A stretch of DNA of 64,000 nucleotides from a virus. The stretch spans positions 92,976-156,975 of IMG/VR virus record IMGVR_UViG_3300027976_000006. The stretch is one strand, 5' to 3'. Position 1 is the stretch's first letter. Each line of letters begins with the position of its first letter. The position numbers were made by a program, and so were the translations under genes. This document shows positions 3,101 through 54,603 of this stretch, one piece after another. The notes below the pieces were generated by a model. The model saw only the letters and a list, made by a program, of their open reading frames with translations, was not told the origin of the DNA and searched no databases.

Positions 3101-3120
3101 TTTTGGCTGGAGTTTTACAA

Positions 3121-7667: not shown

Positions 7668-8414
7668 ATGGCAGTTAATTTTGAATTGTTACGAATGGCA
7701 CGACAAAGCATAGGAAAAAAACACTTATCTAAATATGCATTCGTTGCAGCGGGTGACCCGGCTATGGGTGCTCCCCCGATGGACCCTTCTATGGGCGGTG
7801 GCGGTGCTCCCCCGATGGACCCTTATATGGGCGGTGGTGGTGCTCCCCCGATGGACCCTTCTATGGGCGGTGGCGGTGCTCCCCCGATGGACCCTTATAT
7901 GGGCGGTGGCGGTGCTCCCCCGATGGACCCTTATATGGGTGGTGGCGGTGCTCCGCCCCCAGCCGACCCGATGGCTGCAATAATGCCGATGATTCAGCAA
8001 GCGGTACAGCAGGCAATGTCCGCCAACGGCGGAGGACAAGCACAAGCAACGCCGTCTGGGCTCAGACCTAAAATCGATATCAATGTCGAAATTGTACAAA
8101 TTAAGAAAATGCTTGCCAAAATTATTGACTCACTTGGTATTCACGTGCCTGTGTCTGATATGGTGGTAACACCTGAAGATTTAAATCAAATTGCGCAAGG
8201 TGGCCCTGGCTATGCGGCGGCAACGCCCGACCAGCCGGCGGGCGGGGGTGGGCTTGGGCAGATTCAGCCTGTTTCTCCCATGAAAGCGGCAGAGGCCTGG
8301 GAAAGTGGTGCAGCTTTCAGTTTACCTTCTGATTATTACCCAGCGCAAACAGCGCATAAAAGTAAAAGTGTAGCGGAGTTGGCTACTGCTCTTTTAATGC
8401 GAAAATCTATGTAA
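7668..8414 (+). CDS. Gly/Pro/Met repeat protein encoded between the polymerase genes
   Basis: 248 residues. Of two in-frame ATGs six bases apart, the second was chosen because GGAG lies seven bases before it and only one base before the first. Residues 1-30 are a basic N-terminal helix. Residues 34-97 are a low-complexity tract with a 12-residue period (GGGGAPPMDPYM or SM). After an Ala/Gln-rich helix, a globular-looking part at about residues 128-165 (IDINVEIVQIKKMLAKIIDS) is followed by another glycine-rich linker and a C-terminal helix. I do not recognise it. Its place between two polymerase subunits suggests it may bind the polymerase or help package it, but this is inference. Confidence 0.65.
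   Translation: MAVNFELLRMARQSIGKKHLSKYAFVAAGDPAMGAPPMDPSMGGGGAPPMDPYMGGGGAPPMDPSMGGGGAPPMDPYMGGGGAPPMDPYMGGGGAPPPADPMAAIMPMIQQAVQQAMSANGGGQAQATPSGLRPKIDINVEIVQIKKMLAKIIDSLGIHVPVSDMVVTPEDLNQIAQGGPGYAAATPDQPAGGGGLGQIQPVSPMKAAEAWESGAAFSLPSDYYPAQTAHKSKSVAELATALLMRKSM
7767..7958 (+). repeat. 36-bp in-frame tandem repeat
   Basis: About five copies of a 36-base unit start at 7767, 7803, 7839, 7875 and 7911, with a diverging sixth at 7947. Each encodes GAPPMDP(S/Y)MGGG. Copies differ mainly by TCT/TAT (Ser/Tyr) and single synonymous changes, so the array is recent or kept uniform by recombination. Because the unit is a multiple of three, copy-number change would alter protein length without breaking the frame. 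Confidence 0.9.
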
Positions 8415-8426
8415 GGAGTTTATGTT

Positions 8427-8651
8427 ATGTTCATTGTGGAGGTTCTTACTACCGTAGGGAAACCTCCACTTAGGCTTCCTGCTTCTCAAGTTGTAGTGCG
8501 TATGCCGGATGGCACTCCAATTAGCGTGGCGGCTTTGTTCGGCGGGGTTACTAGCGTTTTGGTATCGCATTGTGAAGACTCTAGCTTCAATGACAATTTA
8601 CGTAAGTTAGGCATTAACGAAACCGTTATTTCTACAAAGGTACAAGTGTAA
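8427..8651 (+). CDS. Unknown small protein (74 aa)
   Basis: The start is preceded by AAGGAG about nine bases upstream. The protein looks like a small beta-rich domain: FIVEVLTTVG, then a VVVRMPDGTPISVAALF stretch that could form a beta hairpin, then an acidic/hydrophobic C-terminus ending in ISTKVQV. It has no membrane segment or motif I recognise. It lies between the two polymerase subunit genes, one base from the next gene, so the two are probably translated together. Confidence 0.65.
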   Translation: MFIVEVLTTVGKPPLRLPASQVVVRMPDGTPISVAALFGGVTSVLVSHCEDSSFNDNLRKLGINETVISTKVQV

Positions 8652-8652
8652 T

Positions 8653-9228
8653 ATGGACAATTCTTTGCGCTCTTCCGACATATATTACAGAGATAGGCAA
8701 CCAATAGTTGTGCCTAAGCCTGTGCCGATGCCGACTTATCGGCAATCTTCTAACGAAAGTTTTTCCAATAATAAATATTATGCGGAGATGTCAACACCGG
8801 CTGGCACAGACGACATAGTTAAAATGCAACTGCGACCAAAAAAAGAATCGGAATTGGAGTTAGCGGATAACTGGGACGGTATAGCAACTTTTCAGAATGA
8901 ATTTAAAGAAGGTGCCACTTCTATCGTGGTAAAATCAACTGAAGCTGTAATCCTGCAGTTACAAGTTGCTGTGGATATGGCAGTCGGGCGTAACGAGTTG
9001 ACGAGAGAGCAGGTAGACTCTATAACTTTTGTAGCAACAGCTCGTGCCCCGATTTTTGCGGTACCAAAAGTGCCTCCGATTAAAGAAACAACTGTTTCTC
9101 CCAAGAGCACACCCGAGGCAGCCGATATCCTAAACGCCCCGACTAAACCGGGCAATAAAAAGGCAAAGCGGGGCATTACCCTGAAAGACATTGCAGCTGT
9201 GTTTGATGTCGACGATAGCGACGCTTAA
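8653..9228 (+). CDS. Unknown protein with a peptide shared with the polymerase fusion N-terminus
   Basis: 191 residues; the start lies one base after the previous stop, so translation is likely coupled. Residues 5-14 read LRSSDIYYRD. The polymerase fusion has LRLSDINYRD at its residues 73-82, a match of eight in ten. The middle is a mixed alpha/beta region with VVKSTEAVILQLQVAVDMA. The C-terminal third is Pro/Lys-rich and ends in an acidic tail. No family is recognised. The shared peptide and the position between polymerase genes make a polymerase-associated role possible, which is inference. Confidence 0.65.
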   Translation: MDNSLRSSDIYYRDRQPIVVPKPVPMPTYRQSSNESFSNNKYYAEMSTPAGTDDIVKMQLRPKKESELELADNWDGIATFQNEFKEGATSIVVKSTEAVILQLQVAVDMAVGRNELTREQVDSITFVATARAPIFAVPKVPPIKETTVSPKSTPEAADILNAPTKPGNKKAKRGITLKDIAAVFDVDDSDA

Positions 9229-9232
9229 AATC

Positions 9233-9242
9233 CAGATTTTAA
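9233..9242 (+). promoter_or_regulatory. Candidate regulatory motif CAGATTTTAA
   Basis: Third copy of the intergenic decamer, one base different from the other two. It lies in the 41-base gap directly before the beta'-C gene. Function is unproven. Confidence 0.25.
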
Positions 9243-9269
9243 ATAATTTGTTCAGGGCAAAACTATTTT

Positions 9270-12200
9270 ATGTTGAACACAACCGTTGGGCAATTGTTGA
9301 TTAATGATGTACTCCCCGAAGAGATGAGAGACTCGCACCGTGTGTTAGATAAGAAGGGGTTGCAATCTTTATTACAACAAGTGGCGCAACAATACCCAGA
9401 ACGCTATCGAGATATTTCTTTTCAGCTAAGCCAGCTAGGTCAAAGCATGGCGCAGCAGCAGGGTGGTATGTCGTTTGGTCTGCGACATCTGCAAGTAAGT
9501 AAAGCGGCTATGGCATCTCGGCAGAAAGTTAAAGTTTCACTTGCTAATATACTAGCGGACGACACATTGACGGACCGCCAACGAAATGACCAGATTATTC
9601 TTGCTGTTGGCAAGGAAAGTCCCGAGCAACAAAAGCAAGTTCTGGCAGAAGCATTAAAAGACAAAAACCCGCTTGGGCTGCAGGTGATGTCGGGAACCCG
9701 CGGTAAGTCGATGAACCTAACTAGTCTGCTGGGTTCGGATATGTTGTATTCTGACCAGCGTGACGAAGTGATTCCGATTCCTGTATTGCACAGTTATAGC
9801 GAGGGGTTGTCACCTGCGGAATATTGGGCTGGAACTTACGGGGCGCGCAAAGGGATTATGGCAACTAAGTTTGCCACACAAGAAGCTGGTTTTTTTAACA
9901 AGCAGCTAAACCAAACTAGTCATCGTCTTGTGGTTACGGGAGAGGATGCCGAGGAGGACAAAGACGCACCTATTCGTGGCTTGGTGGTAGACACCGAAGA
10001 TGCGGATAACGAAGGTGCTTTATTGGCCCGTGACGCAGGTCCTTACGCACGCAATACCCCACTTACCCCGAAAATACTAAACCATTTACAACGGCTAGGG
10101 CACCCTAGAATTTTGGTACGCTCCCCGCTAGTTGGTGGTTCTCCCGAGGGTGGTGTTTATTCTAGAGATGTAGGTATTAGGGAAACAGGAAGGTTGCCGG
10201 GTATTGGGGAGCAAGTTGGGTTGCAGGCTGCACACGCTCTAAGTGAACCGATCAGCCAAGGGCAACTATCTGCAAAGCATTCTGGTGGGGTTGCGGGGCA
10301 AGAAAAAGCTGTAAGCGGGTTTCAATATTTAAACCAATTAGTGCAGGTTCCTAAGAAAATGCAAGGCGGGGCAGCCCATTCCCTTACAGATGGCACGGTG
10401 CAGCGGATTGAGGCAGCTCCAGCGGGTGGTAGCTATGTGACCATCGGGGATAAAAGACATTATGTAGGAGTAGGGTATGAGCTTAAAGTTAAAAAAGGAG
10501 ACGAAGTAGAAGCTGGTGATGTAATTAGTACGGGGATTCCTAACCCCGCAACTATTACAGAGCATAAAGGAATTGGGGAAGGTCGGCGATATTTCGTTAA
10601 CGAATTTCGTAAGGCTATGGGTGACAGCGGAATGTTCGGACATCGGCGTAATGTTGAAGTGTTGGCAAGGGGGCTTATCAACCACGTAAGGTTGACGGAA
10701 GAAACTGACGATAACGTTCCTGATGATATTGTACCTTATTCAACGCTTGAGCACACTTATAAGCCGCGGGCAGACTATCAGCGATTAACGCCCAAGCGTG
10801 CGTTAGGTCAATATCTTGAACGACCTGTGCTGCATTACACCATAGGCACCAAGATTCAACCCTCGATGCTTAAGAATTTTGAAGAATTTAAAGTTAATGA
10901 AATTCCAGTGCACAAGAACCCTCCTCCATTTGTGCCACAGATGGTACGTGGGTTGTATCAAATGCAGCACGACCCCGATTGGATGACACAAATGTATGGG
11001 TCTGGGCTGAAGAAAAGTTTTTTAGACTCGGTTACGCATGGTGCAGTTAGCGAAGAGCGAGGTACAAGCTTTGTGCCGAGTTTGGCCTTGGGGCTTAATT
11101 TTGGTGAAGGCAGTGATCGTGCCGTAATAAAGCCGAAGTCTGGGGCAACTCCTCCTTTTTTTGGTGGCAGTTTTACTCCGGGTCAAACTAAATTTGCAGC
11201 AGATACTCCGAATGTCTCTGCCCCGCCTTCTGCTTCTAAACCGCCTGCTGTTTCTACCCCACCTAGAACTTTAGCTCCGGGCACAAACATTATGCCGACA
11301 GCACCGACACCTGTAAAAGCACCTACACCTGCTCCGACATACTCGAACTCTAACGCAAATCAATTTAGTAATTTAATGCATAGTAATTCTCCCTTTGCTC
11401 AACAAACCGGGCAGGCGTTGAATCAAATGAATCCATTACACGCAATGATGATGTTGGGGGGGATGGCTAATAATAATAATAATAATAATATGTCTAGTAA
11501 TATAATGAATGGGTTTGGCGGGCAAAATAATGGTGGAATGTTTAATATGTTTAATGGGGGGCAAAATAATAACGGGCAAAATAGCGGAGGAATGTTCAAT
11601 AATATGTTTAATATGCCCAGCTCGTACGATTCGGAATCTAACATGCCTGCTGAGCCTGTAACTGAAAGCCCATATGTCTCGGCTCAAGGTCCAGTAAGTA
11701 ATACTGCCTCTGGTGCTGCGTATGACACCGCAGCAAAGGGGGTAGGTGCGGGATATTCAGCAGTAGCAAATAAATTTTCAAGTCCTCCTATCTCATCTAA
11801 TATTATGCCTCCGCCGTTGCCTAGAACACCTCCTCCGATACCCGCTAAGCTTCCTCCGATACCCGGAATGACTCCTCCTCCGATACCAGGAATGACTCCT
11901 CTTCCGCTGCCTGGGGTTAAACCTCTGGCTGGTATGCTCAGTAAAGCCACTTCAATAGGTGGTACAGGTTTAAAGTTAGTAAGTAAAGCGGCACTGCCAC
12001 TATCTGTGGCTCTGGACACAATAAACGTCGGGCAAGACATATACAACAAAGGTTGGGATAATACAACTAACGACGCAGCACAAAAATGGCGAGATATACT
12101 TTCGGCCAAGGATGGGCTACATACCTTGTATCAAGCTCCATTACAAGTTCTAAACCCTGTGGCTAATGCACAATTAATTGCTGGCGGGGCAACACAGACT

Positions 12201-12890
12201 GCCCAGATGGTAGGAGAAAAAGCACAAGAAGGGCTAACCCATGCGTATGACAAAGTAACGGGTACGGATACTCGTTCTCGTAATTTTGCAGAGGACAAGA
12301 CACAAGTTAAAAACATGGAGTTAGAAAATCAAAGAGATTTAGAAGGACAAAGAGCACTAAATAAGCCGAATCCAAATCTACCCCCAGATAGGTTAGCTTT
12401 AAATACGCAAGAAAATGCCCGTCTTGATGCTAAAATACAAGATTCTAAAACGAGGCAAGGAAATACGGCGGATGAAACTGCAAACTGGAGGCTAGGCCAG
12501 CAAAATTGGTTTGGCAGTGGTGGCCACAAATTTAGGGATGCTATGCAAAATTCGATTACTAATTCAGCTGCCGAATTGCAGGGTTTAAATAACGGAGGCA
12601 CACTAGATGCAGGGCAGCAGGCTAGGAAAGAACAGTTAGAAAACGGACAAGCACAGCGTAAACAAATGATCGGTACTTACGATCGGGAGGGCGGGGCATC
12701 TGGTAAAGGTTTGTTTAGTACAGATATGCGCAACCGGGTTAGCAGTCTTAAGGAAAATATTGTGCAGGTCGGTTCACAACTTAGAGACCCCAACCTTCCT
12801 CCGGACCAAAAAGCAAAATTAGAGGCACAATTAAAAAATAATAATGAAATGTTAGAAGAATATCGAGGATGGGCAGAAAGTTCTAAATAA
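9270..12890 (+). CDS. RNA polymerase beta' C-terminal part with a long extra C-terminal region
   Basis: 1206 residues. The first roughly 570 complete the beta' subunit begun by the fusion at 3121. They include the bridge helix and trigger-loop start (residues 179-195, GLSPAEYWAGTYGARKG), then FATQEAGFFNKQLNQ and LVVTGED as in bacterial beta'. VGLQAAHALSEPISQGQLS (from about residue 316) matches the conserved C-terminal motif AAQSIGEPGTQL. RRYFVNEFRKAMGDSG near residue 449 follows the family pattern. After this come about 600 residues not found in normal beta': a Pro/Ser/Thr linker, an Asn/Gly tract, proline-rich PPIPGMTP repeats, a hydrophobic stretch near residue 905 and a Gln/Asn/Lys-rich coiled-coil tail. 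The extension may tether the enzyme in the virion (inference). The ribosome binding site is weak. Confidence 0.92.
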   Translation: MLNTTVGQLLINDVLPEEMRDSHRVLDKKGLQSLLQQVAQQYPERYRDISFQLSQLGQSMAQQQGGMSFGLRHLQVSKAAMASRQKVKVSLANILADDTLTDRQRNDQIILAVGKESPEQQKQVLAEALKDKNPLGLQVMSGTRGKSMNLTSLLGSDMLYSDQRDEVIPIPVLHSYSEGLSPAEYWAGTYGARKGIMATKFATQEAGFFNKQLNQTSHRLVVTGEDAEEDKDAPIRGLVVDTEDADNEGALLARDAGPYARNTPLTPKILNHLQRLGHPRILVRSPLVGGSPEGGVYSRDVGIRETGRLPGIGEQVGLQAAHALSEPISQGQLSAKHSGGVAGQEKAVSGFQYLNQLVQVPKKMQGGAAHSLTDGTVQRIEAAPAGGSYVTIGDKRHYVGVGYELKVKKGDEVEAGDVISTGIPNPATITEHKGIGEGRRYFVNEFRKAMGDSGMFGHRRNVEVLARGLINHVRLTEETDDNVPDDIVPYSTLEHTYKPRADYQRLTPKRALGQYLERPVLHYTIGTKIQPSMLKNFEEFKVNEIPVHKNPPPFVPQMVRGLYQMQHDPDWMTQMYGSGLKKSFLDSVTHGAVSEERGTSFVPSLALGLNFGEGSDRAVIKPKSGATPPFFGGSFTPGQTKFAADTPNVSAPPSASKPPAVSTPPRTLAPGTNIMPTAPTPVKAPTPAPTYSNSNANQFSNLMHSNSPFAQQTGQALNQMNPLHAMMMLGGMANNNNNNNMSSNIMNGFGGQNNGGMFNMFNGGQNNNGQNSGGMFNNMFNMPSSYDSESNMPAEPVTESPYVSAQGPVSNTASGAAYDTAAKGVGAGYSAVANKFSSPPISSNIMPPPLPRTPPPIPAKLPPIPGMTPPPIPGMTPLPLPGVKPLAGMLSKATSIGGTGLKLVSKAALPLSVALDTINVGQDIYNKGWDNTTNDAAQKWRDILSAKDGLHTLYQAPLQVLNPVANAQLIAGGATQTAQMVGEKAQEGLTHAYDKVTGTDTRSRNFAEDKTQVKNMELENQRDLEGQRALNKPNPNLPPDRLALNTQENARLDAKIQDSKTRQGNTADETANWRLGQQNWFGSGGHKFRDAMQNSITNSAAELQGLNNGGTLDAGQQARKEQLENGQAQRKQMIGTYDREGGASGKGLFSTDMRNRVSSLKENIVQVGSQLRDPNLPPDQKAKLEAQLKNNNEMLEEYRGWAESSK
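11469..11489 (+). repeat. (AAT)7 trinucleotide repeat
   Basis: Seven perfect AAT units in frame encode seven asparagines (residues 734-740) in the extra region of the beta'-C protein. Slippage here would change the Asn count but keep the frame. Confidence 0.95.
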
Positions 12891-43803: not shown

Positions 43804-45831
43804 ATGGCGGATAAATCAAATAATTGGGCAATGGTGGATTTGTCTGCACAACCAGGCGGGGCACAGTTAGTGCTACGCGTGTCAGGTGCCGATATTCCCG
43901 TAGCCCAATTTAGCATGAGTTACGGCTTAAACGACATTCCAAAGGCTACAGCATTAATTGCACTTGGGCGCGACGCAAGGACGGGCGAGCCATCCGCTAT
44001 TTACGCCCAGATAAAGACGATTAAACAAATGGCCAGAGCTCGTGTATTTATCGTAGGTAATCTGGGCGACTGGTCTCCCCGTGGTGCAAACGGGGTTAAA
44101 GAATATTTTCCAACGAGTACCAACACATCTATATTTATTGGTTATGTGGCAGGAACAAGCTACCGCAGGTCATCAGGGCAAATCAGCTTAGTGTTAAATT
44201 TAGTAAGTAAATTAGTGGATTTAGCCCTGTCTTCTGGCGGCAGCAAAGATGTAGTACCTGGCTCGCCTAACGATTTGATGTTGCCAACATTAACTGAGGG
44301 TTCAGGTGTCAGCGGAGAAGCATCAAATAAATTTACAGACCAGTTAGAGCAAGATTTAATTATTGATTTTAGTGAGGCAATTTTAAAAGTACTAATGAAG
44401 GTGTCTGAAGAAAGTCAAATTCAAACACACGAGGCGGATTTTTGGTGTGGTGGCTTAGCACCCGCAGGTTCCCCGATTTCGGATAGGGCAGGTAACGGAA
44501 GGGCGGCAGCTGTAATTAAACCGGGCGCCGGGGATAGATGGCAAGGTATTAGTAATCTTGCCACAGGTACAGATGTGGACAAGTTTCTTACAAAGTATCC
44601 GCTTAAGGTGGGCTCAGCTTGTATACCAAAAGCGTGCTCTTTTATCGGAGGTCAAGTTTCGGCTTCACTTGCTAGCACCAGTATGTGGGGGATGCTGATT
44701 GGTTCAATTTTGCCTAACTTTGGCTGCGGTATTATCCCGTGGGCATCTGGAGCAATTATAGCTCCTATTCTTGACATGGCACGGGATGCTCAAATAACAA
44801 TTAAAGCAGATGAATATGCAGATTTTGATTTAACCACTCAGTCCCAGCGCCCATTGTACGGAGTTGGGGTGATGGGTAACTTCGAGATGGGTACTCTTCC
44901 TCAATCTGAGGAGCCAAAGCTCTGTACTGGAGCTGTCTTTGTCGCTAAAAACGAGGATGGTAGTGATTTAAATGACGGTATGTGGTTATTTGTAAACACC
45001 CCGGGGTGGACTGATAATTGGACTAATAGCGAGCCGGGAACAGCAGATGGAGAGAGTAATCCAGATATTGTTAAAACACTAACTGAACCAAGTCACGATG
45101 CTGCTGGGATTGCAGTTGTAGCCATAGACCGCAAGCCAGAGGAGCAGCTGATACCAGTTAATGACGCAATGCAACAATATGCTAAAATGATGTATGCTAG
45201 TAACGCCTTACGCGGGCGAGAGGGTTCTATCGTGGGTAAGCTTCGGTTTGACGTCGCACCAGGTACTACTATATTAGTGCAAGCTAGAGGGGATAATTAC
45301 TTGTCTGCAGGTGTGGATACCTTGGCCACGGATATGTATGCATTTGTGGCTAAAGTTCACATATCCATTAACGCGGAGAACGCCTCTGCTACTACATCTT
45401 TTGAAGTAACTAATTTACGCACTGCAGCTGAGAATAACTCCGGTTCAGAAAGATTCTCGATGCTTGAGCACCCATTCTTTGCAGAAAACTATTTTAAATA
45501 TGTTCCTTTGGTTCCTATGCTTTCTGTTCCCAGTAAAGGCTACTGGGACCCGCCTAGTAATCCACCGCTTACGGCGGTGGCAGGGGAGGTCGACCAAACG
45601 CTTACGGCGGTGGCAGGGGAGGTCGACCAACCGCTTACGGCGGTAATAACTACCGCGTTGCCTCCAGCTATCTCGGGTAATGCTGATTTAACTCCTACGG
45701 CTGAAACGTCAGGGGCGACCAATTTTCTGCCCCCGATAGACGCACCTATTCGAAGTAATCCTGTCGTACTAACGGCCCGCCTGAGCTCCGTTAGTGATTC
45801 TGGAGAAGCAGGGCAAACAACAGCACAATAA
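43804..45831 (+). CDS. Large baseplate hub-type protein with C-terminal repeats (675 aa)
   Basis: Strong GAGGAG start. The N-terminal 160 residues resemble a tail-hub beta domain (QLVLRVSGADIPVAQFSMSY; SIFIGYVAGTSYRRSSGQIS). The middle is globular with a few cysteines (IPKACSFIGGQVSASL). Near residue 525 there is RFSMLEHPFFAENYFKYVPL, and the C-terminal 80 residues are low complexity with repeats of LTAVAGEVDQ encoded by a 33-bp tandem repeat. Tail-hub proteins of this kind connect the tube to the spike. The C-terminal repeats probably form a flexible tail. It lies directly before the sigma-factor gene. Confidence 0.65.
   Translation: MADKSNNWAMVDLSAQPGGAQLVLRVSGADIPVAQFSMSYGLNDIPKATALIALGRDARTGEPSAIYAQIKTIKQMARARVFIVGNLGDWSPRGANGVKEYFPTSTNTSIFIGYVAGTSYRRSSGQISLVLNLVSKLVDLALSSGGSKDVVPGSPNDLMLPTLTEGSGVSGEASNKFTDQLEQDLIIDFSEAILKVLMKVSEESQIQTHEADFWCGGLAPAGSPISDRAGNGRAAAVIKPGAGDRWQGISNLATGTDVDKFLTKYPLKVGSACIPKACSFIGGQVSASLASTSMWGMLIGSILPNFGCGIIPWASGAIIAPILDMARDAQITIKADEYADFDLTTQSQRPLYGVGVMGNFEMGTLPQSEEPKLCTGAVFVAKNEDGSDLNDGMWLFVNTPGWTDNWTNSEPGTADGESNPDIVKTLTEPSHDAAGIAVVAIDRKPEEQLIPVNDAMQQYAKMMYASNALRGREGSIVGKLRFDVAPGTTILVQARGDNYLSAGVDTLATDMYAFVAKVHISINAENASATTSFEVTNLRTAAENNSGSERFSMLEHPFFAENYFKYVPLVPMLSVPSKGYWDPPSNPPLTAVAGEVDQTLTAVAGEVDQPLTAVITTALPPAISGNADLTPTAETSGATNFLPPIDAPIRSNPVVLTARLSSVSDSGEAGQTTAQ
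45566..45644 (+). repeat. 33-bp in-frame tandem repeat
   Basis: Copies of the 33-base unit start at 45566 and 45599, with a partial third at 45632. They encode LTAVAGEVDQT/P. The near-identity of the copies suggests recent duplication. The repeat unit is a multiple of three, so protein frame is maintained. Confidence 0.9.
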
Positions 45832-45853
45832 GTTTAACAAGGAGTACTTAGTT

Positions 45854-46594
45854 ATGATGGACGATTACTTAGAAGACGAATACAAACCAGCATTTCAAAG
45901 TTGGCAGCAAAATCAATCACCGGAAGGCAATGCTGCCTTACTTAAAGCCCTTGACCCTGTAGTGCAAAAGGGAATCAAAATGTACGGGTCTGACAGCCCG
46001 TTAACCACAAGTAGAGCTAAGCTGTTAACATTAGATGCAGTGCGAAAGTATGATCCTAAAAGGGCACGACTTCAGTCTCATGTGTTAAACCAGATGCAAG
46101 GACTTCGCCGAATCAACCAACAACAACAACAAGTTATCAGCGTTCCAGAGCGCGTGTTGTTAGAAAACCAACGGCTACATGGTTACACACAAGAACTATC
46201 AGACGAGCTAGGGAGAGACCCAACAGACGCAGAATTGTCGGATAAACTGGGCGTGTCTATGTCACGGTTTAAAAAAATTAGAAGTTATCAGCCAGGCGTT
46301 AATACGGGAAGACTAGATGCGGTTAACCCATTAACGGGGGGTACCGCTAGTTCAATCCCTAACCAACAACAGGACAGCTCCGATCTTTGGAGCGAGGTCG
46401 TATACCAAGGGCTTGGTCCTTTAGACCAGCGAGTTATGGAATTAACTTTAGGAATGCGAGGGCATAAAAAATTGTCGAATCAAGAAATTGCTAGTAAGCT
46501 TAGTCGCAGCCCCGGGGCAATTACTCAGCGTAAGACTAAAATACAGCAACTGTTAGACCGAGAACAAGCTTTGTCTCCTTTTATTGCGAGGTAG
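45854..46594 (+). CDS. RNA polymerase sigma-70-family factor, phage-encoded
   Basis: 246 residues; AAGGAG lies nine to ten bases before the ATG, 22 bases after the previous stop. Sigma factors direct RNA polymerase to promoters. A divergent region 2-like part (about residues 50-90, KLLTLDAVRKYDPKRARLQS) is followed by a region 3-like segment with SDELGRDPTDAELSDKLGVS (residues 116-135). The C-terminal region 4 contains a helix-turn-helix: LSNQEIASKLSRSPGAITQR at about residues 205-225. The protein is short and lacks a recognisable region 1. It lies inside the baseplate genes of a phage that also encodes its own polymerase, so it probably partners that enzyme. Whether it is packaged is unknown. 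Confidence 0.85.
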   Translation: MMDDYLEDEYKPAFQSWQQNQSPEGNAALLKALDPVVQKGIKMYGSDSPLTTSRAKLLTLDAVRKYDPKRARLQSHVLNQMQGLRRINQQQQQVISVPERVLLENQRLHGYTQELSDELGRDPTDAELSDKLGVSMSRFKKIRSYQPGVNTGRLDAVNPLTGGTASSIPNQQQDSSDLWSEVVYQGLGPLDQRVMELTLGMRGHKKLSNQEIASKLSRSPGAITQRKTKIQQLLDREQALSPFIAR

Positions 46595-47842: not shown

Positions 47843-49504
47843 ATGACATTAAATTTTTCTAATGCAGATTTATTTAGTTTAACGGCGTTAAACGCAGCAG
47901 ATGTACAGCAGCTGGTAGACCGAATTGTCACACAACTGCAAGAACTAAACCCCAGTTTAGATTTAAAGCGAGGGGTATTCAAGGACACCGTAGCTTATTA
48001 CCATGCAGTGCTGGAGGCCTCAATCCGTACTAGCTTAAGAAGGTACCAGTCAGCCAGAAGTCTACAGCAAATTCGGAACAACCCGGAGCTGGCCGACACC
48101 GCAGTAGTGGACGATGTTCTTTCCAATTGGGGTATAGCCCGTAAAAGCGGGACTAAGGCTATCGGCTCTATTACTATTGAGTTAAGTCAGGCACGCTCCG
48201 TTAATATTCCAACTGGTTTTTCATTTCAAGCGGCAGGTAAACGTTATTTTGCTACAAAAACATTTGTTGCCAGGTCGGCAGAATCGCAGTTATCCTTGAC
48301 AACTGACCGGCTATTGTCCCATTTAAGTAACGGCAATTACGCATTTACTATTGAAGTAGCAGCTGAAAACGTCGGAGCTGCCTATAAGTTAAACGCAGGC
48401 GACTCTGTTGTTCCAGTTCGTTCTATCGCCGGCTATGTGACTAGTTATGCCACCTCTAGCTTTTTAGACGGGTTAGGAGAAGAAACCAACGAAGAGCTGT
48501 TGCAACAACTTCAGTTAGGTATAGCAGCAAAGACTTTATCTAACCGAACTAATATGCGATCGTTTCTTAGATCTATTCCTGCTTTTGCCTCGGTAACTAA
48601 TCAATCTATTGTCGGGTATGGTGACGCAGAGATGTTGCGGGATCGGCATACAATATTTCCTGTCAGCTACGGTGGCAGGGTAGACTGGTATGTTCGAGGA
48701 CAATTTCCATTACAACGGACACTCTTAACCGTTTCAGCAATATGCGTGGAGGTTGCTTCAACTACAAGTACTTGGCAATTTTCATTGGCTAAAAACAGTA
48801 TTCCAGGGTTTTACGAAGTCAACAAAATCAGAACGGCGGCAGACGCAGGTTTAAATTCTGGATTTGAACCAAGCAGCGATACGAGGTCTACCGATCTAAC
48901 GGGAGATGGGTTTTTACCTGACATTGCCACCGTGGCGGAAGGTGCTTATTCTGCATTTCAAACTTCGGTTATTCGTTTTGCAGACACATTTACTTCTACG
49001 GCTACTCTATCGGTGGGGCAAATTTCACAATACCTTTGCGAAGTCACTGGAACACCGTTTATCCGAGAGATACAAGAGCTAGTCGCAAGCCGGGATGTGC
49101 GAAGCTATGCCGCGGATGTGTTAGTCAAAGCCCCTGTTCCTTGCTTCGTAGATGTCACATTAACCGTCAATAAAACGGCAAGTGATGTTGTACCTCCAAT
49201 CGATGCAATTAAGGCTGCTATTGTAGCTGTAGTCAACAGTACGGATTTTATCGGGAGGCTGGACGGTTCTATTATTATCAAGGAAGTACATAAGCTTTTG
49301 CAGAATAGTTTAAGTGTGACAAATTTAGATTTGTTTGGGCGGATACGCAATCCAGATGGAACAATCCAGTACCTCAGAAATTCAGATTCTTTGATAGTGC
49401 CAAACCAGCCGGATAAAATGGTTACGGCTAAAACCGTACAATTTTTTACCGAAATTTCCAAGATAACAGTTAATGTTGCTTCTACCCTCTATACTGCAAA
49501 TTAA
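47843..49504 (+). CDS. Baseplate J-like (gp6-type) wedge protein
   Basis: 553 residues, AGGATGACAAG upstream of the ATG. It follows the gp25-like gene, as in many contractile phages. The baseplate J pattern is visible near residue 110-150: GSITIELSQARSVNIPTGFS and FQAAGKRYFATKTF, a beta domain in which a sentence of Thr, Pro and Gly surrounds a turn. A helical part with GLGEETNEELLQQLQLGIAA follows near residue 210. The C-terminal part holds a further beta-rich domain. This protein makes the ring that joins baseplate wedges. The call rests on motif and order. Confidence 0.82.
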   Translation: MTLNFSNADLFSLTALNAADVQQLVDRIVTQLQELNPSLDLKRGVFKDTVAYYHAVLEASIRTSLRRYQSARSLQQIRNNPELADTAVVDDVLSNWGIARKSGTKAIGSITIELSQARSVNIPTGFSFQAAGKRYFATKTFVARSAESQLSLTTDRLLSHLSNGNYAFTIEVAAENVGAAYKLNAGDSVVPVRSIAGYVTSYATSSFLDGLGEETNEELLQQLQLGIAAKTLSNRTNMRSFLRSIPAFASVTNQSIVGYGDAEMLRDRHTIFPVSYGGRVDWYVRGQFPLQRTLLTVSAICVEVASTTSTWQFSLAKNSIPGFYEVNKIRTAADAGLNSGFEPSSDTRSTDLTGDGFLPDIATVAEGAYSAFQTSVIRFADTFTSTATLSVGQISQYLCEVTGTPFIREIQELVASRDVRSYAADVLVKAPVPCFVDVTLTVNKTASDVVPPIDAIKAAIVAVVNSTDFIGRLDGSIIIKEVHKLLQNSLSVTNLDLFGRIRNPDGTIQYLRNSDSLIVPNQPDKMVTAKTVQFFTEISKITVNVASTLYTAN

Positions 49505-49518
49505 ATAGGAGTCGAGCT

Positions 49519-50421
49519 ATGTCGCGAGAACACAAAGGCCGAATTGAAGCTATACGCTTGTTTAAGAAAAACGGAAATAATCAAAATTCACCACAAAAAA
49601 TGAGTTTTGCGTTGGATTACTTAACCTTTTTTGGGTATGTCGCTGTTGAGCTTTTGCATAACATCGATTACTCCAAGCTTGAAGAAGCGGTAAAATCATT
49701 TCAAAGTTTGTTTAATCTGAAAGTAGATGGTGTTATTGGGCCTAAAACATTAAGAGCCATGGAAACGCCGCGTTGTGGCTGCCCGGACAAAATTGACCCT
49801 AAAAACAAACACCATATTCAATTTATGCAGGCACAGGCTGTTGCTGCCAAACAGCGTAGCCGCTGGAATAAGCAGGGGCTTACTTACGCAGTACAGCAAT
49901 ATGTCGTAGGTTTACCTAAACTAGCCCAAGATAAAATATTTTCTACCGCCTTTCGTGCATGGGATGATGTCTGTGGTTTAAACATTACGCGCGTTAAAGG
50001 CACAAAAAAAGCAGATATTGTGCTTGCCACCGGGAAAGGAATACAGCATAATTTTGATGGTAGCGGTGGTACTCTGGCTTGGGCTTACATGCCCAAGGGG
50101 AATGACCAGCAGCTGTCGATGGAATTTGATTTAGATGAAACTTGGATTTCTCAACCCACGGATCGTGGAATTATGCTGCTTAATGTTGCTTGCCACGAAT
50201 TTGGTCATCTTCTTGGTTTAGACCATTCAAAAAATGCCGGCGCGCTGATGGCTCCTTACTACAATCCATTCATAAGCGGACCTCAAGAAAATGACGACAT
50301 TAAACGCATTCAAACACTCTACGGATTAAATCAAAATGTAAAAGCGGTTAAAAAAGAAACAAAAAGCATATTAGTCGTAGAGTTAAAAAAGGGTCAAAAA
50401 CTGGTTGTTACCCGTACTTAA
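49519..50421 (+). CDS. Matrix metalloproteinase-like zinc protease (matrixin) with cysteine-switch propeptide
   Basis: 300 residues with AGGAG upstream. Residues 25-82 look like a peptidoglycan-binding-type propeptide domain (AVKSFQSLFNLKVDGVIGPK). PRCGCPD at residues 84-90 matches the matrix metalloproteinase cysteine switch PRCGVPD, which keeps the enzyme latent. The catalytic domain shows FDGSGGTLAWAYMP and the zinc site HEFGHLLGLDH with H226, E227, H230 and H236. ALMAPYYNP supplies the Met-turn. In typical matrixins LAHA and AHFD histidines bind a structural zinc; here they are W and M/E, so that site seems lost. No hydrophobic signal peptide is visible. It opens a seven-gene cassette between baseplate and tail genes. 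I infer a virion or lysis role; the substrate is unknown. Confidence 0.93.
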   Translation: MSREHKGRIEAIRLFKKNGNNQNSPQKMSFALDYLTFFGYVAVELLHNIDYSKLEEAVKSFQSLFNLKVDGVIGPKTLRAMETPRCGCPDKIDPKNKHHIQFMQAQAVAAKQRSRWNKQGLTYAVQQYVVGLPKLAQDKIFSTAFRAWDDVCGLNITRVKGTKKADIVLATGKGIQHNFDGSGGTLAWAYMPKGNDQQLSMEFDLDETWISQPTDRGIMLLNVACHEFGHLLGLDHSKNAGALMAPYYNPFISGPQENDDIKRIQTLYGLNQNVKAVKKETKSILVVELKKGQKLVVTRT

Positions 50422-50433
50422 AGGAGTAATGTT

Positions 50434-50814
50434 ATGGTAATAGATTTGGCGGCGACAGTTACTTGGATCAAGCCTGTACTAATTATTCTGCTAATGACAA
50501 TTGGAATAGTTTTTTTTGCCGTTCCTTGGCTGAAGGAAATGATAGGCAAGCTTCCTTCTAAGCCAGCGGAAACACCACAACCTTCCCCCAGCGCTAAGCC
50601 TAAACAACGAAGCAGCGACGCCACGCCACCGGCTGGAACTGCAGAATATCTGCATATTGTCGAGACAACTGCCCCTAATGCCGACCCTACCGTATGGTGG
50701 GAGTACGCAAAAGCTGAAATGACAGAAGCCGAAGTAGCAATTGCCGAGGCTAGATTAGCTCAGCATGCTCCAGCTACTTCCGCTAATATCAACAAAGAAG
50801 AAATAAAAAACTAA
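50434..50814 (+). CDS. Small single-pass membrane protein (126 aa)
   Basis: AAGGAG precedes the ATG, 12 bases after the matrixin gene. A hydrophobic stretch at about residues 8-32 (VLIILLMTIGIVFFAVPWL) is a likely transmembrane or signal-anchor helix. A Pro/Lys/Ser-rich linker follows (SKPAETPQPSPSAKPKQR), then a helical C-terminal part with VAIAEARLAQHAP. Possible roles are a holin-type or membrane-anchoring protein for the neighbouring peptidases; the sequence does not decide. I do not recognise a family. Confidence 0.65.
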   Translation: MVIDLAATVTWIKPVLIILLMTIGIVFFAVPWLKEMIGKLPSKPAETPQPSPSAKPKQRSSDATPPAGTAEYLHIVETTAPNADPTVWWEYAKAEMTEAEVAIAEARLAQHAPATSANINKEEIKN

Positions 50815-50830
50815 CCGTAGGAGAATCATT

Positions 50831-51187
50831 ATGTCTTTGCGACACATAGGTCTATTGAGTGGAATTCTTGGTTTGTTATTGTTGGTCTTACCTTTGTCTA
50901 ATGACTCGGTCGCGATCGAACCAGCTACAACTACGGCCTCACCTAAACAAGTATTTGCCACTTACGAGAAGTTATGGAGAGCGCATGCTAAAGCCGCAGC
51001 AGACAAGCTCGCTTCTACTGAAATTAAAACGGAAAAGGAAATTTGGGAATTCATTGCGGCGGGGCAAGAGCCAGCACGAAAGGCAGCTTTTATGGATTTA
51101 GCAAAAAGCGAACAGGACTATTTTGACAAGCAAGGTGGTTGGTCGGCGAAAGCCCATGAAAAACTATTAAGGAGTTATGCAAAATGA
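50831..51187 (+). CDS. Small exported or membrane-anchored helical protein (118 aa)
   Basis: AGGAG precedes the ATG. A hydrophobic N-terminus at residues 5-22 (GLLSGILGLLLLVLPLS) looks like a signal peptide or anchor, followed by a helical mature part with FATYEKLWRAHAKAAADKLA and DFAKSEQ-like charged helices ending in KLLRSYAK. There is no lipobox cysteine. The stop overlaps the start of the papain-like gene (ATGA), so the two are translated together. It may be a periplasmic partner of the peptidase or a spanin-like protein. The family is not recognised. Confidence 0.62.
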   Translation: MSLRHIGLLSGILGLLLLVLPLSNDSVAIEPATTTASPKQVFATYEKLWRAHAKAAADKLASTEIKTEKEIWEFIAAGQEPARKAAFMDLAKSEQDYFDKQGGWSAKAHEKLLRSYAK

Positions 51188-52008
51188 GTGAAACACAAAT
51201 GTCTGGCAACTGGAAAAAAGAAAAAGAAGACTACAGCTTTATTCGTAATCTTTCTAAAGCTCCTATGACTACAACCGCATGGAAAGAATTCGTTAGGCCC
51301 GTTGAAGTTGACATCAAGTGGCATCGCACCGAAGATCAAGGGCAGATTGGAAGTTGCCAAGGGCATTCACTTACTTCGGCGCTAGAACGCTTAGCTTTTG
51401 TACGTGGTGAGTCTGTGCAATTGTCTGAAATTTTTGCTTATCTTGCTTCTCAAAAACTAGATAATCTTCTAGGTGCGGATAAGGGTTCTACTATTTCCGG
51501 AGGTTGTCAAGTTGGACTTGAGTATGGTTGTCCTCCTGAGGCGCTTACAGGTTACCCTAAAAGCTATCCCGGCAGGGCGGACCGTGCCGCGATACTAAGT
51601 ACAGCCAACTACGAAGCTGCCCTGCCTTATAGAGCATTATCCCTGTGGGAAGTGCCCGATGATCACGAAAAAGTTCTAGATTTTATTGGCGGGGGCGGTG
51701 CAATAAATTTTGGTATCGATTATTATGATGGCTTAATCCCTGCGGATAGAGTTGTACGCACTTACAGCCCACCACGCCACCCCGACGGGGGGCATGCCAT
51801 GTGTGCCCTAGGCTACGATAAAGACGGAAATCTGCGTGCCGCCAACTCTTGGGCAGATGGCGGTTATTTGATTACTCCCGGAGCTTGGAAGCAGATAGTA
51901 GAGCACCGAGATACGGCAGCAATTGGGTTAATGGGCAACAAGGAAGCCACCCCAGTTGATTGGTATCATAATTCACCTTACTACAAATTGAGGCTAAAAC
52001 CAGAATGA
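51184..52008 (+). CDS. Papain-like (C1-type) cysteine peptidase
   Basis: 274 residues; the start overlaps the previous stop and AGGAG precedes it. The conserved C1 residues are in order: Q52 (oxyanion hole) and C58 in EDQGQIGSCQGHS, H204 in GGHAMCALGYD, and N221 in AANSWADGGY. The spacing from Q to C equals that of papain. There is no propeptide or signal peptide visible, unlike most secreted papain-like enzymes. The next gene overlaps by four bases. It lies two genes from a matrixin, so the cassette holds two unrelated peptidases. The substrate could be host envelope proteins or virion proteins; this is inference. Confidence 0.88.
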   Translation: MSETQMSGNWKKEKEDYSFIRNLSKAPMTTTAWKEFVRPVEVDIKWHRTEDQGQIGSCQGHSLTSALERLAFVRGESVQLSEIFAYLASQKLDNLLGADKGSTISGGCQVGLEYGCPPEALTGYPKSYPGRADRAAILSTANYEAALPYRALSLWEVPDDHEKVLDFIGGGGAINFGIDYYDGLIPADRVVRTYSPPRHPDGGHAMCALGYDKDGNLRAANSWADGGYLITPGAWKQIVEHRDTAAIGLMGNKEATPVDWYHNSPYYKLRLKPE

Positions 52009-52394
52009 AAAATACATTAACAATCGTGCTTAACACATTTGTGTTTGGACTGGTGTGTCTTATGGTCTTTATAGCTTTACGCCCGACAGATTCAGCTAGC
52101 ATAGCTGCCTCGCCTGAATTGGCAGAAAGCGTGTTAGCTAATTTTAACCGGCATGTAAGTGAAGTACTTGCCGGCAACCAAAAAGTCCAGTTAGACACGC
52201 TGATTGAACAAAAGAAAATACTACAAAAGATTGACGCAAATGTAGATAAACTGATCGGCAATACTACTTCCGACCCTGCTGTTACCGAAGAAAAAAGGAA
52301 TGTACAAATTGAAGTAATGCCGCCTACTACCTACCGTGGGATATTTCGTCGAGGTGCCTCAATTCGGACACCAGCAGCCGGAACGGGCAAGTGA
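52005..52394 (+). CDS. Small single-pass membrane protein (129 aa)
   Basis: The ATG overlaps the stop of the papain-like gene; the ribosome binding site is poor, suggesting coupling. Residues 3-26 (TLTIVLNTFVFGLVCLMVFI) form a likely transmembrane helix. The next part is a helical coiled-coil-like region (VLANFNRHVSEVLAGNQKVQ; LIEQKKILQKIDANVDKL), then a Pro/Arg-rich tail. The layout is anchor plus extracytoplasmic or cytoplasmic coiled coil, like spanin or anchoring proteins, but no spanin signature is certain. The family is not recognised. Confidence 0.62.
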   Translation: MKNTLTIVLNTFVFGLVCLMVFIALRPTDSASIAASPELAESVLANFNRHVSEVLAGNQKVQLDTLIEQKKILQKIDANVDKLIGNTTSDPAVTEEKRNVQIEVMPPTTYRGIFRRGASIRTPAAGTGK

Positions 52395-52436: not shown

Positions 52437-52718
52437 ATGAATTACCCAATCAAAATTTCACCATTTGCCTATGACTTGCTGTGTGGCTTACTGCAGCGAG
52501 GCGTGGTAGAACACGAAGGTAAGCGGTTAGATTTTTCGGAAGTCCAGAACATTTCAATTCAACACGGGGTTATGACTTTTCAGCCACCGGCTAAAGTAAG
52601 CGTCGCAGTGGGCCCTATAAAAATAAAGACTACCATGTCCTCTCTTACAGTTTGTGCCGACGGAGTTGAAGTTGAAATTGATTATTCGCCTATTAACATC
52701 AAGGTAATACCCCAATGA
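52437..52718 (+). CDS. Small beta-rich protein (93 aa)
   Basis: The ATG follows GGA by about seven bases after a 42-base gap. The protein looks like a beta domain: SPFAYDLLCGLLQRGVVEHE near the N-terminus, then alternating strands VMTFQPPAKVSVAVGPIKIK and VEVEIDYSPINIKVI. There is no signal peptide or catalytic motif. The stop overlaps the next start (ATGA). It belongs to the peptidase/membrane cassette but its role is not visible. Confidence 0.58.
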   Translation: MNYPIKISPFAYDLLCGLLQRGVVEHEGKRLDFSEVQNISIQHGVMTFQPPAKVSVAVGPIKIKTTMSSLTVCADGVEVEIDYSPINIKVIPQ

Positions 52719-53047
52719 ACTGGATAGCATTAACAGAAGAATGCTGCGGTACACAAGGTTGTTCGTTATCCGCAATTCCCAAAACAACCCTAACTACTAC
52801 TTCCAGACGAGTTGCACAGGGGGTGCTAAAAAAACGAGAGAATATTAGCAGGGTGGCACTTGCGGTACAAAAGGCATACGAAGCTAACCCCGCCGGAACC
52901 AGAGAACAAACGCAAGAGCAAGCTACTAAATTTATTGTAAGTAGTTTTATTTTTTTCTTTATCGGAAGTCTGCTGTTAAACAAAGTAATGAGTATCGCAT
53001 TAACGTGGTTTTTAGATTATTTATTTAGACCAGAAAAGAATGAGTAA
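52715..53047 (+). CDS. Small membrane protein with a C-terminal hydrophobic segment (110 aa)
   Basis: The start overlaps the previous stop. The N-terminus has cysteines (LTEECCGTQGCSLS), the middle is a basic helix (RRVAQGVLKKRENISRVALA), and residues 73-103 are strongly hydrophobic (FIVSSFIFFFIGSLLLNKVM; ALTWFLDYLF), forming one or two membrane helices. The gene overlaps the next by one base (TAATG). A tail-anchored or holin-like role is possible. The family is not recognised. Confidence 0.6.
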   Translation: MNWIALTEECCGTQGCSLSAIPKTTLTTTSRRVAQGVLKKRENISRVALAVQKAYEANPAGTREQTQEQATKFIVSSFIFFFIGSLLLNKVMSIALTWFLDYLFRPEKNE

Positions 53048-54603
53048 TGACTTACCGCTACCCGCAGAATGATTTTGATGACACAGATTTACTTTTAAAT
53101 CTTCTAGGAAGTTTCTGGGCAACAACCTATCAAGGAAATGAATTAATTTCAAACTTATCTGGCGTAGCCGGGCAAATGGCACAACAGACGTATATGCAGC
53201 TGATGGAACTCGTAAACAGTATTTCTAGATTTAATGTTCCATTGTTCCACCAAAACAACTGGTATGCCTTGAATTTGCGCGAAACGCAGCTAAACCTAGA
53301 TTTAAACTTATTACCTAAATATGCCACGCAGACCAATCAGACTTACACCTCGGATAATCCCTTAGGCTATGGACAAGCAATACATTCAGCTTATTTTGTA
53401 TACACCAAGCCGCAAGGTTTAACCGACGTAAAGCTTATGTTTAACCGGTTGACTTCCCCTACCGTGGCGTTGGTGCAGGGGGTAGACTACTGGCTAGAAG
53501 ACACGATTATTGTTTTTCGAGCTGACCCCTTTAAGAACGATTTAATCGCAAAACGAGATTTACTAAACGATAAAGGCGAACTCGCAGATAAAGAAATAGT
53601 ATTGTGGCTGTATCAAGGAAAATGGGAATGGTACACAACTTATAAACAATTTGGATATGCGCTTGGGTTGCAGTTGAAATCAAGCGAAGGATATAAGCAG
53701 TTTATTAACGCGATATTTGACGCTTTTGTAAGTGGCACAAGTATTCGCACACAAAAGCTGGCCCTAGCTGCAGCTTTCGGTGTGCCTTTAGTTATAGAAG
53801 CAAAAGAAACTGTTGAAAAAATAATTAAAGACGCAGATAAACTTAACATCATTACAGATCAACATGCCTATCGGTTTCCACTAACTGCAACACCCCTCGT
53901 ACAGGAACAACAACAAGTAACCGCCGGAGATGGGCTTACCGATCTTCTGCAAGTATTTGAGTTTACTCAGGGTAAACAAATTAACCCACAAGACATACCT
54001 GCTCTTTCCGTAGGCGTTGGGCTAATACCTTACGGGTTTCAAGGTGAATTAATTTTTGAAAATATTGAAACTCCTTTACTTGTCGAGCTTGAAGTTGCCG
54101 GGTTTACTAAGGTATCTTGGAAAATTGGTGGCTACCCTTTTGACGCAGACAAATTTTGGGAGGATGTGCATACGGCAGGGATAGCCAAAAATCAAACAAT
54201 TGCAATGCTTCTGGATCTACGGGGCACACGTATAGGTCAGCCGACTGCTGCAATGCTCCCTAGTAAGATAAATCCATTACAATTTCTTACCGATAATATT
54301 TTACGCAATAACGCTTATGTCGTGAAGGTTAAAGCTGGGGTTTCTCGGGCAGCCCGCCTCCCTTTTGTACCCACCGAACAATTGCGTAAAATTCAACCAC
54401 CGCACACTTTGATGTTATTAAATGTGGAATTGGTCTACGCTGATAATTATGTTAGTATGGAATCCGCAGGTACTGAAACGGACGTAGGCTGTGCAGAAAA
54501 TTTATCTTTTTTTCCGTGCACAGTAAACACAGAAGCCATGGCGGCATCGGCATACATGACTGAACAGGTAAATATTACTACGATTGGCGGTCGTTGTATT
54601 TAA
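53047..54603 (+). CDS. Tail/baseplate structural protein (518 aa)
   Basis: The start overlaps the previous stop by one base. Gene order after the J-like gene suggests the gpI or gp7-like wedge position, though the peptidase cassette intervenes. The N-terminus is helical (LLLNLLGSFWATTYQGNELI), the middle contains GVDYWLEDTIIVFRADPFKN and a helix with AFGVPLVIEAKETVEKII, and the C-terminal part is mixed. Several short cysteines occur near the end (CAENLSFFPC). I do not recognise a family, so the wedge idea is inference. Confidence 0.58.
   Translation: MTYRYPQNDFDDTDLLLNLLGSFWATTYQGNELISNLSGVAGQMAQQTYMQLMELVNSISRFNVPLFHQNNWYALNLRETQLNLDLNLLPKYATQTNQTYTSDNPLGYGQAIHSAYFVYTKPQGLTDVKLMFNRLTSPTVALVQGVDYWLEDTIIVFRADPFKNDLIAKRDLLNDKGELADKEIVLWLYQGKWEWYTTYKQFGYALGLQLKSSEGYKQFINAIFDAFVSGTSIRTQKLALAAAFGVPLVIEAKETVEKIIKDADKLNIITDQHAYRFPLTATPLVQEQQQVTAGDGLTDLLQVFEFTQGKQINPQDIPALSVGVGLIPYGFQGELIFENIETPLLVELEVAGFTKVSWKIGGYPFDADKFWEDVHTAGIAKNQTIAMLLDLRGTRIGQPTAAMLPSKINPLQFLTDNILRNNAYVVKVKAGVSRAARLPFVPTEQLRKIQPPHTLMLLNVELVYADNYVSMESAGTETDVGCAENLSFFPCTVNTEAMAASAYMTEQVNITTIGGRCI

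Follow-up and report, generated by a model that had tools for sequence, protein, structure and literature searches.

We find that a large bacterial virus encodes a matrixin with the zymogen-type architecture of the pro-matrix metalloproteinases (pro-MMPs), an assignment that is well supported, and that this protein has at least about 80 relatives, all from bacterial viruses known only from environmental DNA. The gene lies in a 64,000-nucleotide stretch (hereafter the window) that forms the final 64 kb of a 156,975-base IMG/VR record. For the animal matrix metalloproteinases (MMPs), cysteine-switch latency is textbook knowledge: the enzyme remains latent until the cysteine leaves the zinc. The features of the phage gene, in window coordinates, are as follows:

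49519..50421, + strand: pro-matrixin gene, 300 aa, ATG start, no signal peptide or transmembrane (TM) segment
49507..49511, + strand: AGGAG ribosome-binding site, 7 nt 5' of the ATG
49618..49761, + strand: PG_binding_1-like propeptide domain, aa 34-81 (Pfam 1.1e-9)
49768..49788, + strand: cysteine-switch motif PRCGCPD, aa 84-90 (C86 invariant in 49/49)
49861..50325, + strand: Peptidase_M10 catalytic domain, aa 115-269 (Pfam 1.3e-35)
50191..50226, + strand: C225 and the zinc-binding motif HEFGHLLGLDH, aa 225-236 (from sequence alignment)
50248..50250, + strand: Met-turn methionine M244, in ALMAP (from homologue comparison)

A preliminary description of this DNA had proposed a peptidoglycan-binding-like propeptide ahead of an M10 domain, with switch, zinc-binding motif and Met-turn in the order seen in MMPs. 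Pfam bears this out, the Peptidase_M10 match reaching 123 bits against a cut-off of 24 and the PG_binding_1 match also exceeding its curated cut-off, and residues 30-269 align with human pro-MMP-9 (8e-32, phmmer against the PDB) with PRCG in register. Both signatures of a matrixin (HExxHxxGxxH and the Met-turn) are present, as is the propeptide with the PRCGxPD switch that marks M10A zymogens, and the residues singled out earlier (C86, H226, H230 and H236) were correctly identified. The structural-zinc histidines, described as apparently replaced, are indeed absent from the window protein (the His of LAH and of xHFD): the MMP sequence LAHA...AHFD reads LAWA...MEFD, the second ligand position also being a residue other than His. 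These histidines are common in MMPs, yet dispensable for catalysis. No hydrophobic N-terminus that could serve as a secretion signal was present in the window protein.

An AF2 model computed on an alignment of 49 family members (mean pLDDT 80, pTM 0.76) is confident in the propeptide core and the catalytic core, and not in the linker (approximately aa 91-113) or the specificity and metal-site loops. Zinc was not part of the model, and AF2 may be biased towards MMP-like structures; read with these points in mind, a Foldseek comparison to the PDB returned pro-enzymes as all of its top 18 matches (pro-MMP-3, -9, -1 and -10), with alignments spanning 243-257 columns and a TM-score of about 0.8 by target length for truncated pro-enzymes. 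MMP structures limited to the catalytic domain ranked lower. Because pro-enzymes rank first, the propeptide appears to be modelled in its latent-MMP position. The earlier claim of a phage gene with zymogen architecture is supported. By analogy with these enzymes, the switch cysteine would ligate the zinc and keep the phage pro-matrixin latent.

Relatives were encoded in 115 matching IMG/VR stretches, from which 79 loci were retained; the possibility that the pro-matrixin is an isolated oddity was rejected in view of this large phage family. In two records with an unchanged order of genes, the encoded proteins are 81% identical to that of the window, and both retain the switch and the active site letter for letter. 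Across 49 non-redundant members, aligned down to about 30% identity, seven residues never vary (R85, C86, H226, E227, H230, H236 and M244), and G87 and D90 are nearly invariant. Estimates of dN/dS were about 0.05 (range about 0.04-0.06), with 0.04 for the pair whose dS is unsaturated and about 0.06 for the window protein compared to that of L136, where dS is saturated. The retention of the motif in the 81%-identity homologues, the low dN/dS and the invariance across 49 homologues argue that it did not arise by chance.

Two groups matter within the family: group A, to which the window belongs (switch PRCGCPD, records of about 60-235 kb), and group B (switch xRCGLPD, with many of the records near 200 kb). 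When one matrixin from each group was used as a tblastn query against the 50,697 phage records of INPHARED, no isolate matched at E ≤ 1e-3; at relaxed limits there were weak matches to Lactobacillus phage 3-521, Acinetobacter MD-2021a contigs and a Microcystis phage (probably spurious). One locus, L156, carries tandem matrixins (8252-9595 and 9950-10717), one of the cysteine-switch type and the other joined to a secreted domain that has relatives among the proteins of L145, L148 and L154.

The phage proteins differ from their cellular relatives around the active site. Tryptophan occupies a structural-zinc histidine position (W188) in 48 of 49 phage proteins, and a cysteine immediately precedes HExxH in 45 of 49, compared to none of 33 cellular relatives. 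Two further cysteines stand at fixed columns in group B (31/31), and C152 and C225, examined as a possible disulfide, co-occur in 40 of 41 sequences, not exclusively. In proteins that have no signal peptide, such fixed cysteines would be compatible with a final location outside the cytoplasm. Bacterial proteins that combine PG_binding_1 with Peptidase_M10 (from Nannocystis, L216; Arthrobacter castelli, L220; and a Chlorobiaceae MAG, L215) share the propeptide and PRCGxPD, with a best identity of about 38%, but all three lack the cysteine at position -1, and L215 and L216 retain the structural-zinc pattern LAH...GDxHFD. Most phage sequences separate from cellular ones in a tree; since its deep support is weak and some joins involve long branches, we claim a distinct subtype for the phage matrixins and not a proven single origin.

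A papain-like protease and small membrane proteins usually accompany the phage matrixins, a further difference from the cellular proteins. In the window, the matrixin gene belongs to a cassette that lies between a baseplate gene and a conserved gene of the tail region:

47843..49504, + strand: baseplate J-like protein, left cassette border (PF04865 3.2e-13, phrog_6 2.4e-22)
50434..50814, + strand: 126-aa protein with one N-terminal TM segment (F46)
50831..51187, + strand: 118-aa protein with an N-terminal TM segment or signal (F49)
51184..52008, + strand: papain-like (C1, xylellain-type) cysteine protease (F47; profile match to 3ois, 6.7e-17)
52005..52394, + strand: 129-aa protein with an N-terminal TM segment (F76; a different TM or signal protein, F59, in related phages)
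52437..52718, + strand: 93-aa conserved cassette ORF (F53)
52715..53047, + strand: 110-aa protein with a C-terminal TM segment (F43)
53047..54603, + strand: conserved tail-region gene F25, right border (directly after baseplate J in several related phages)

The F47 protease shows the papain-like C1 fold and triad, and its C58, H204 and N221 are invariant in seven homologues. TM proteins within the 21-kb neighbourhood in the window are confined to the cassette genes, and the F59 protein of L140 has a possible lipobox (LVGC), read by eye. A sigma-factor-like gene (45794-46594; phrog_351, 1.5e-9) also lies within the tail operon, and a 675-aa protein encoded at 43804-45831 contains short near-identical repeats (LTAVAGEVDQ...) near its C-terminus (window 45445-45722).

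Group B phages place the matrixin elsewhere, about 45 kb from baseplate J, and surround it with other genes of similar character: the small TM proteins F17 (two TM segments) and F8, the matrixin, then F19, F18 and F20, which carry N-terminal hydrophobic segments, and finally the papain-like protease F3. This protease belongs to a family other than F47, the two not being clearly related by profile comparison, and its AF2 model matches xylellain 3ois at 2e-8. Where the record includes upstream DNA, every F3 match of at least 63% identity is preceded by a matrixin gene in the same orientation, and in one phage of the window type (L138) an F3-type protease replaces F47. No matrixin was seen near more distant F3 and F47 relatives in the DNA that their records cover; because both papain families occur in phages without a nearby matrixin, the partnership is not obligatory, and the idea of a fixed papain-matrixin pair was rejected. 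A constant position of the matrixin beside the baseplate was likewise rejected, given the group B arrangement and the related phages in which the baseplate slot is empty. Group B phages also encode an actin-like protein of the Volactin family (L160:3642-4673, 7e-63; F5, 46 loci).

Other companions were seen at individual loci. In L144 (10951-12717), L146 (10843-12414), L149-L153 and L214, the matrixin adjoins or lies near a protein with one invariant CxxCH haem-c motif and a usually hydrophobic N-terminus, and small cytochrome c-like proteins also occur nearby. These CxxCH proteins had no Pfam or PDB sequence match; their family was found in 3 of 199 Planctomycetota genomes and another cassette protein in none, which is suggestive of a Planctomycetota host link for the CxxCH-bearing phages only. 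A third type of companion protease, secreted and trypsin-like, is encoded directly upstream of the matrixin in L150 (1862-2548) and L153 (9247-10044).

We scanned 129 entries, covering almost every larger protein of the record (in a few cases as pieces), against Pfam and PHROGs, considering the best 25 of 33 Pfam families for large proteins and the best 25 of 26 PHROGs for smaller proteins only. The matches listed for these entries include a tubulin/FtsZ-like protein, RNA polymerase subunits and a terminase, and no recognisable peptidoglycan hydrolase; since the record is possibly incomplete (relatives are 172-205 kb) and 25 of 33 Pfam families were considered, the scans may have overlooked a normal endolysin. 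Holin, spanin and endolysin all lacked a confident match, and phrog_565 (E 0.03, in group B) gave the best hint of a holin. The tubulin/FtsZ-like protein (1.4e-10; G000 record, a member of alignment A8) has counterparts in some large phages. The multisubunit RNA polymerase is encoded at 3103-7587 and 9270-12890 of the window, where a 1494-aa chain joins beta to part of beta' and the second gene encodes the remainder of beta'; its nearest isolates are Salmonella phage Arash and Vibrio phages D69, D181 and D148, at about 30% identity.

Together, these observations lead us to favour, at about an even chance, the view that the matrixin is a zymogen acting within an accessory envelope-breaching module, most likely one for lysis. 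This reading draws on the papain-like companion, which recurs in two phage groups although the genome position differs, the small TM proteins around the matrixin in both, the zymogen architecture, the purifying selection, the lack of a peptidoglycan hydrolase among the scan matches listed, and the precedent of the metzincin Mtz in Listeria (PMC8235301). The pro-matrixin, which has no signal peptide, would be synthesised in the host cytoplasm, and its propeptide, packed on the catalytic domain with C86 on the zinc, would keep it inactive during virion assembly as in MMPs. Late in infection it may reach the envelope through lesions made by the small membrane proteins of the module, where the switch thiol could be lost through oxidation, binding of the propeptide to the wall, or cleavage of the linker (aa 91-113), for which the papain-like partner is a candidate. 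The active enzyme would then degrade envelope or periplasmic proteins and so aid progeny release. Envelope contact or lysis had been put forward earlier as the setting for activation; this is a plausible setting, given the small single-TM proteins and the papain-like protease encoded around the matrixin.

The main rival to lysis is entry: the enzyme would be carried latent on the baseplate, be activated by host contact, and digest an S-layer or outer-membrane protein for passage of the tail. We regard this as possible, if on the doubtful side. The cassette of the window clade lies in a tail operon, a location that would fit a virion protein as well and counts against a lysis module; moreover, the matrixin is directly downstream of baseplate J in that clade, L144 and L146, its propeptide resembles wall-binding modules, and a virion protein requires no signal peptide. 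However, the group B matrixin is remote from baseplate J, and small TM neighbours are unusual for virion parts. A comparison of loci with related baseplate J genes also weighs against entry. Where baseplate J was at least 59% identical, all eight loci carried the matrixin and a papain-like protease; at 41-45% identity, four loci carried the matrixin and a secreted CxxCH protein. The papain-like protease stands alone in the slot in L415 and L418-L420 (that of L423 looks papain-like by eye), and in L421, L424, L427, L428, L436 and L437 an F25-like gene directly follows baseplate J and the slot is empty. Because the slot is empty or differently filled in related phages, the cassette is accessory and interchangeable, and it is not a tail component needed by every such phage. 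In L415, the cassette with the papain-like protease and without a matrixin is headed by a 71-aa small membrane protein that looks holin-like (11687-11899).

An intracellular role, in which the enzyme processes phage proteins or attacks host proteins and the switch senses redox state within the cell, is improbable. The missing signal peptide and TM segment would suit it, as would the unusual lifestyle of a phage that encodes a multisubunit RNA polymerase of its own and a tubulin/FtsZ-like protein, but a cysteine switch stays closed in a reducing cytoplasm, and the companions are membrane or exported proteins, including the secreted CxxCH neighbours in other phages. Quite improbable, too, is a propeptide that serves only for peptidoglycan targeting, with the cysteine motif an ancestral relic and the enzyme constitutively active or acting on the wall: PG_binding_1 is common in endolysins and the architecture is already present in cellular relatives, but the invariance of R85 and C86 (49/49) and near-invariance of G87 and D90 at 30-80% identity, under strong purifying selection, speak against a relic.

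Within the favoured reading of an envelope-breaching module, a more specific and rather speculative proposal is that two cytoplasm-stored proteases constitute a protease-based form of lysis in large uncultured phages, supplementing or replacing a peptidoglycan endolysin. One of the two would be locked by the cysteine switch and would carry a second, phage-specific cysteine beside the zinc site as a possible thiol/disulfide trigger, and the system would open once it leaves the reducing cytoplasm and enters the oxidising envelope. If the lysis role is true, these phages would time host-cell rupture in a different way and would offer switchable proteases. Strong purifying selection preserves the MMP-type lock in this large phage family, a distinct subtype coupled to a second protease and membrane proteins; this widens the known spread of the cysteine switch and allows the switch to be tested as a cytoplasm-to-envelope redox sensor.

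The nearest functional precedent is Mtz/Tim of Listeria, a phage-derived metzincin with a TIMP-like lipoprotein that sensitises cells to phage lysis and to other wall-targeting agents (PMC8235301). The likeness lies in a phage-associated metzincin that has a small envelope partner and enhances phage lysis; Mtz, however, is Sec-secreted, whereas the window pro-matrixin has no signal peptide, and that work mentions no cysteine switch and reports no papain-like partner. The earlier description was not aware of a phage system using such a latent protease; phage metzincins with a role in lysis have been described, although the Listeria work does not mention a cysteine switch (PMC8235301). In the literature searched, which gave partial coverage, no description of a phage cysteine-switch matrixin was found.

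Among other known systems, the matrixins of insect viruses (granuloviruses, entomopoxviruses and ascoviruses) share a virus-borne M10-like fold, but they come from eukaryotic viruses and are distant in sequence (about 20-27% identity). The annotated metalloproteases of Lactobacillus phage 3-521 and Maribacter phage Colly_1 share an M10-like catalytic fold or the name, with weak matches mostly to the catalytic domain. Xylellain-type papain-like proteases share the Cys/His/Asn triad and fold of the partner, which differs in being phage-encoded and paired with a matrixin. Vertebrate pro-MMPs of family M10A (pro-MMP-9, -3 and -1) share the propeptide, PRCGxPD, HExxHxxGxxH and Met-turn and match over the full length in sequence and fold; unlike them, the phage protein lacks a secretion signal, a hemopexin domain and structural-zinc ligands, has an extra cysteine before HExxH, and is borne by a phage. 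Catalytically, the enzyme belongs to peptidase family M10 and is built as a pro-MMP-like zymogen, and what is new here is that it is phage-borne, lacks a secretion signal and structural-zinc ligands, carries an extra cysteine at the active-site helix, and belongs to a protease/membrane-protein cassette.
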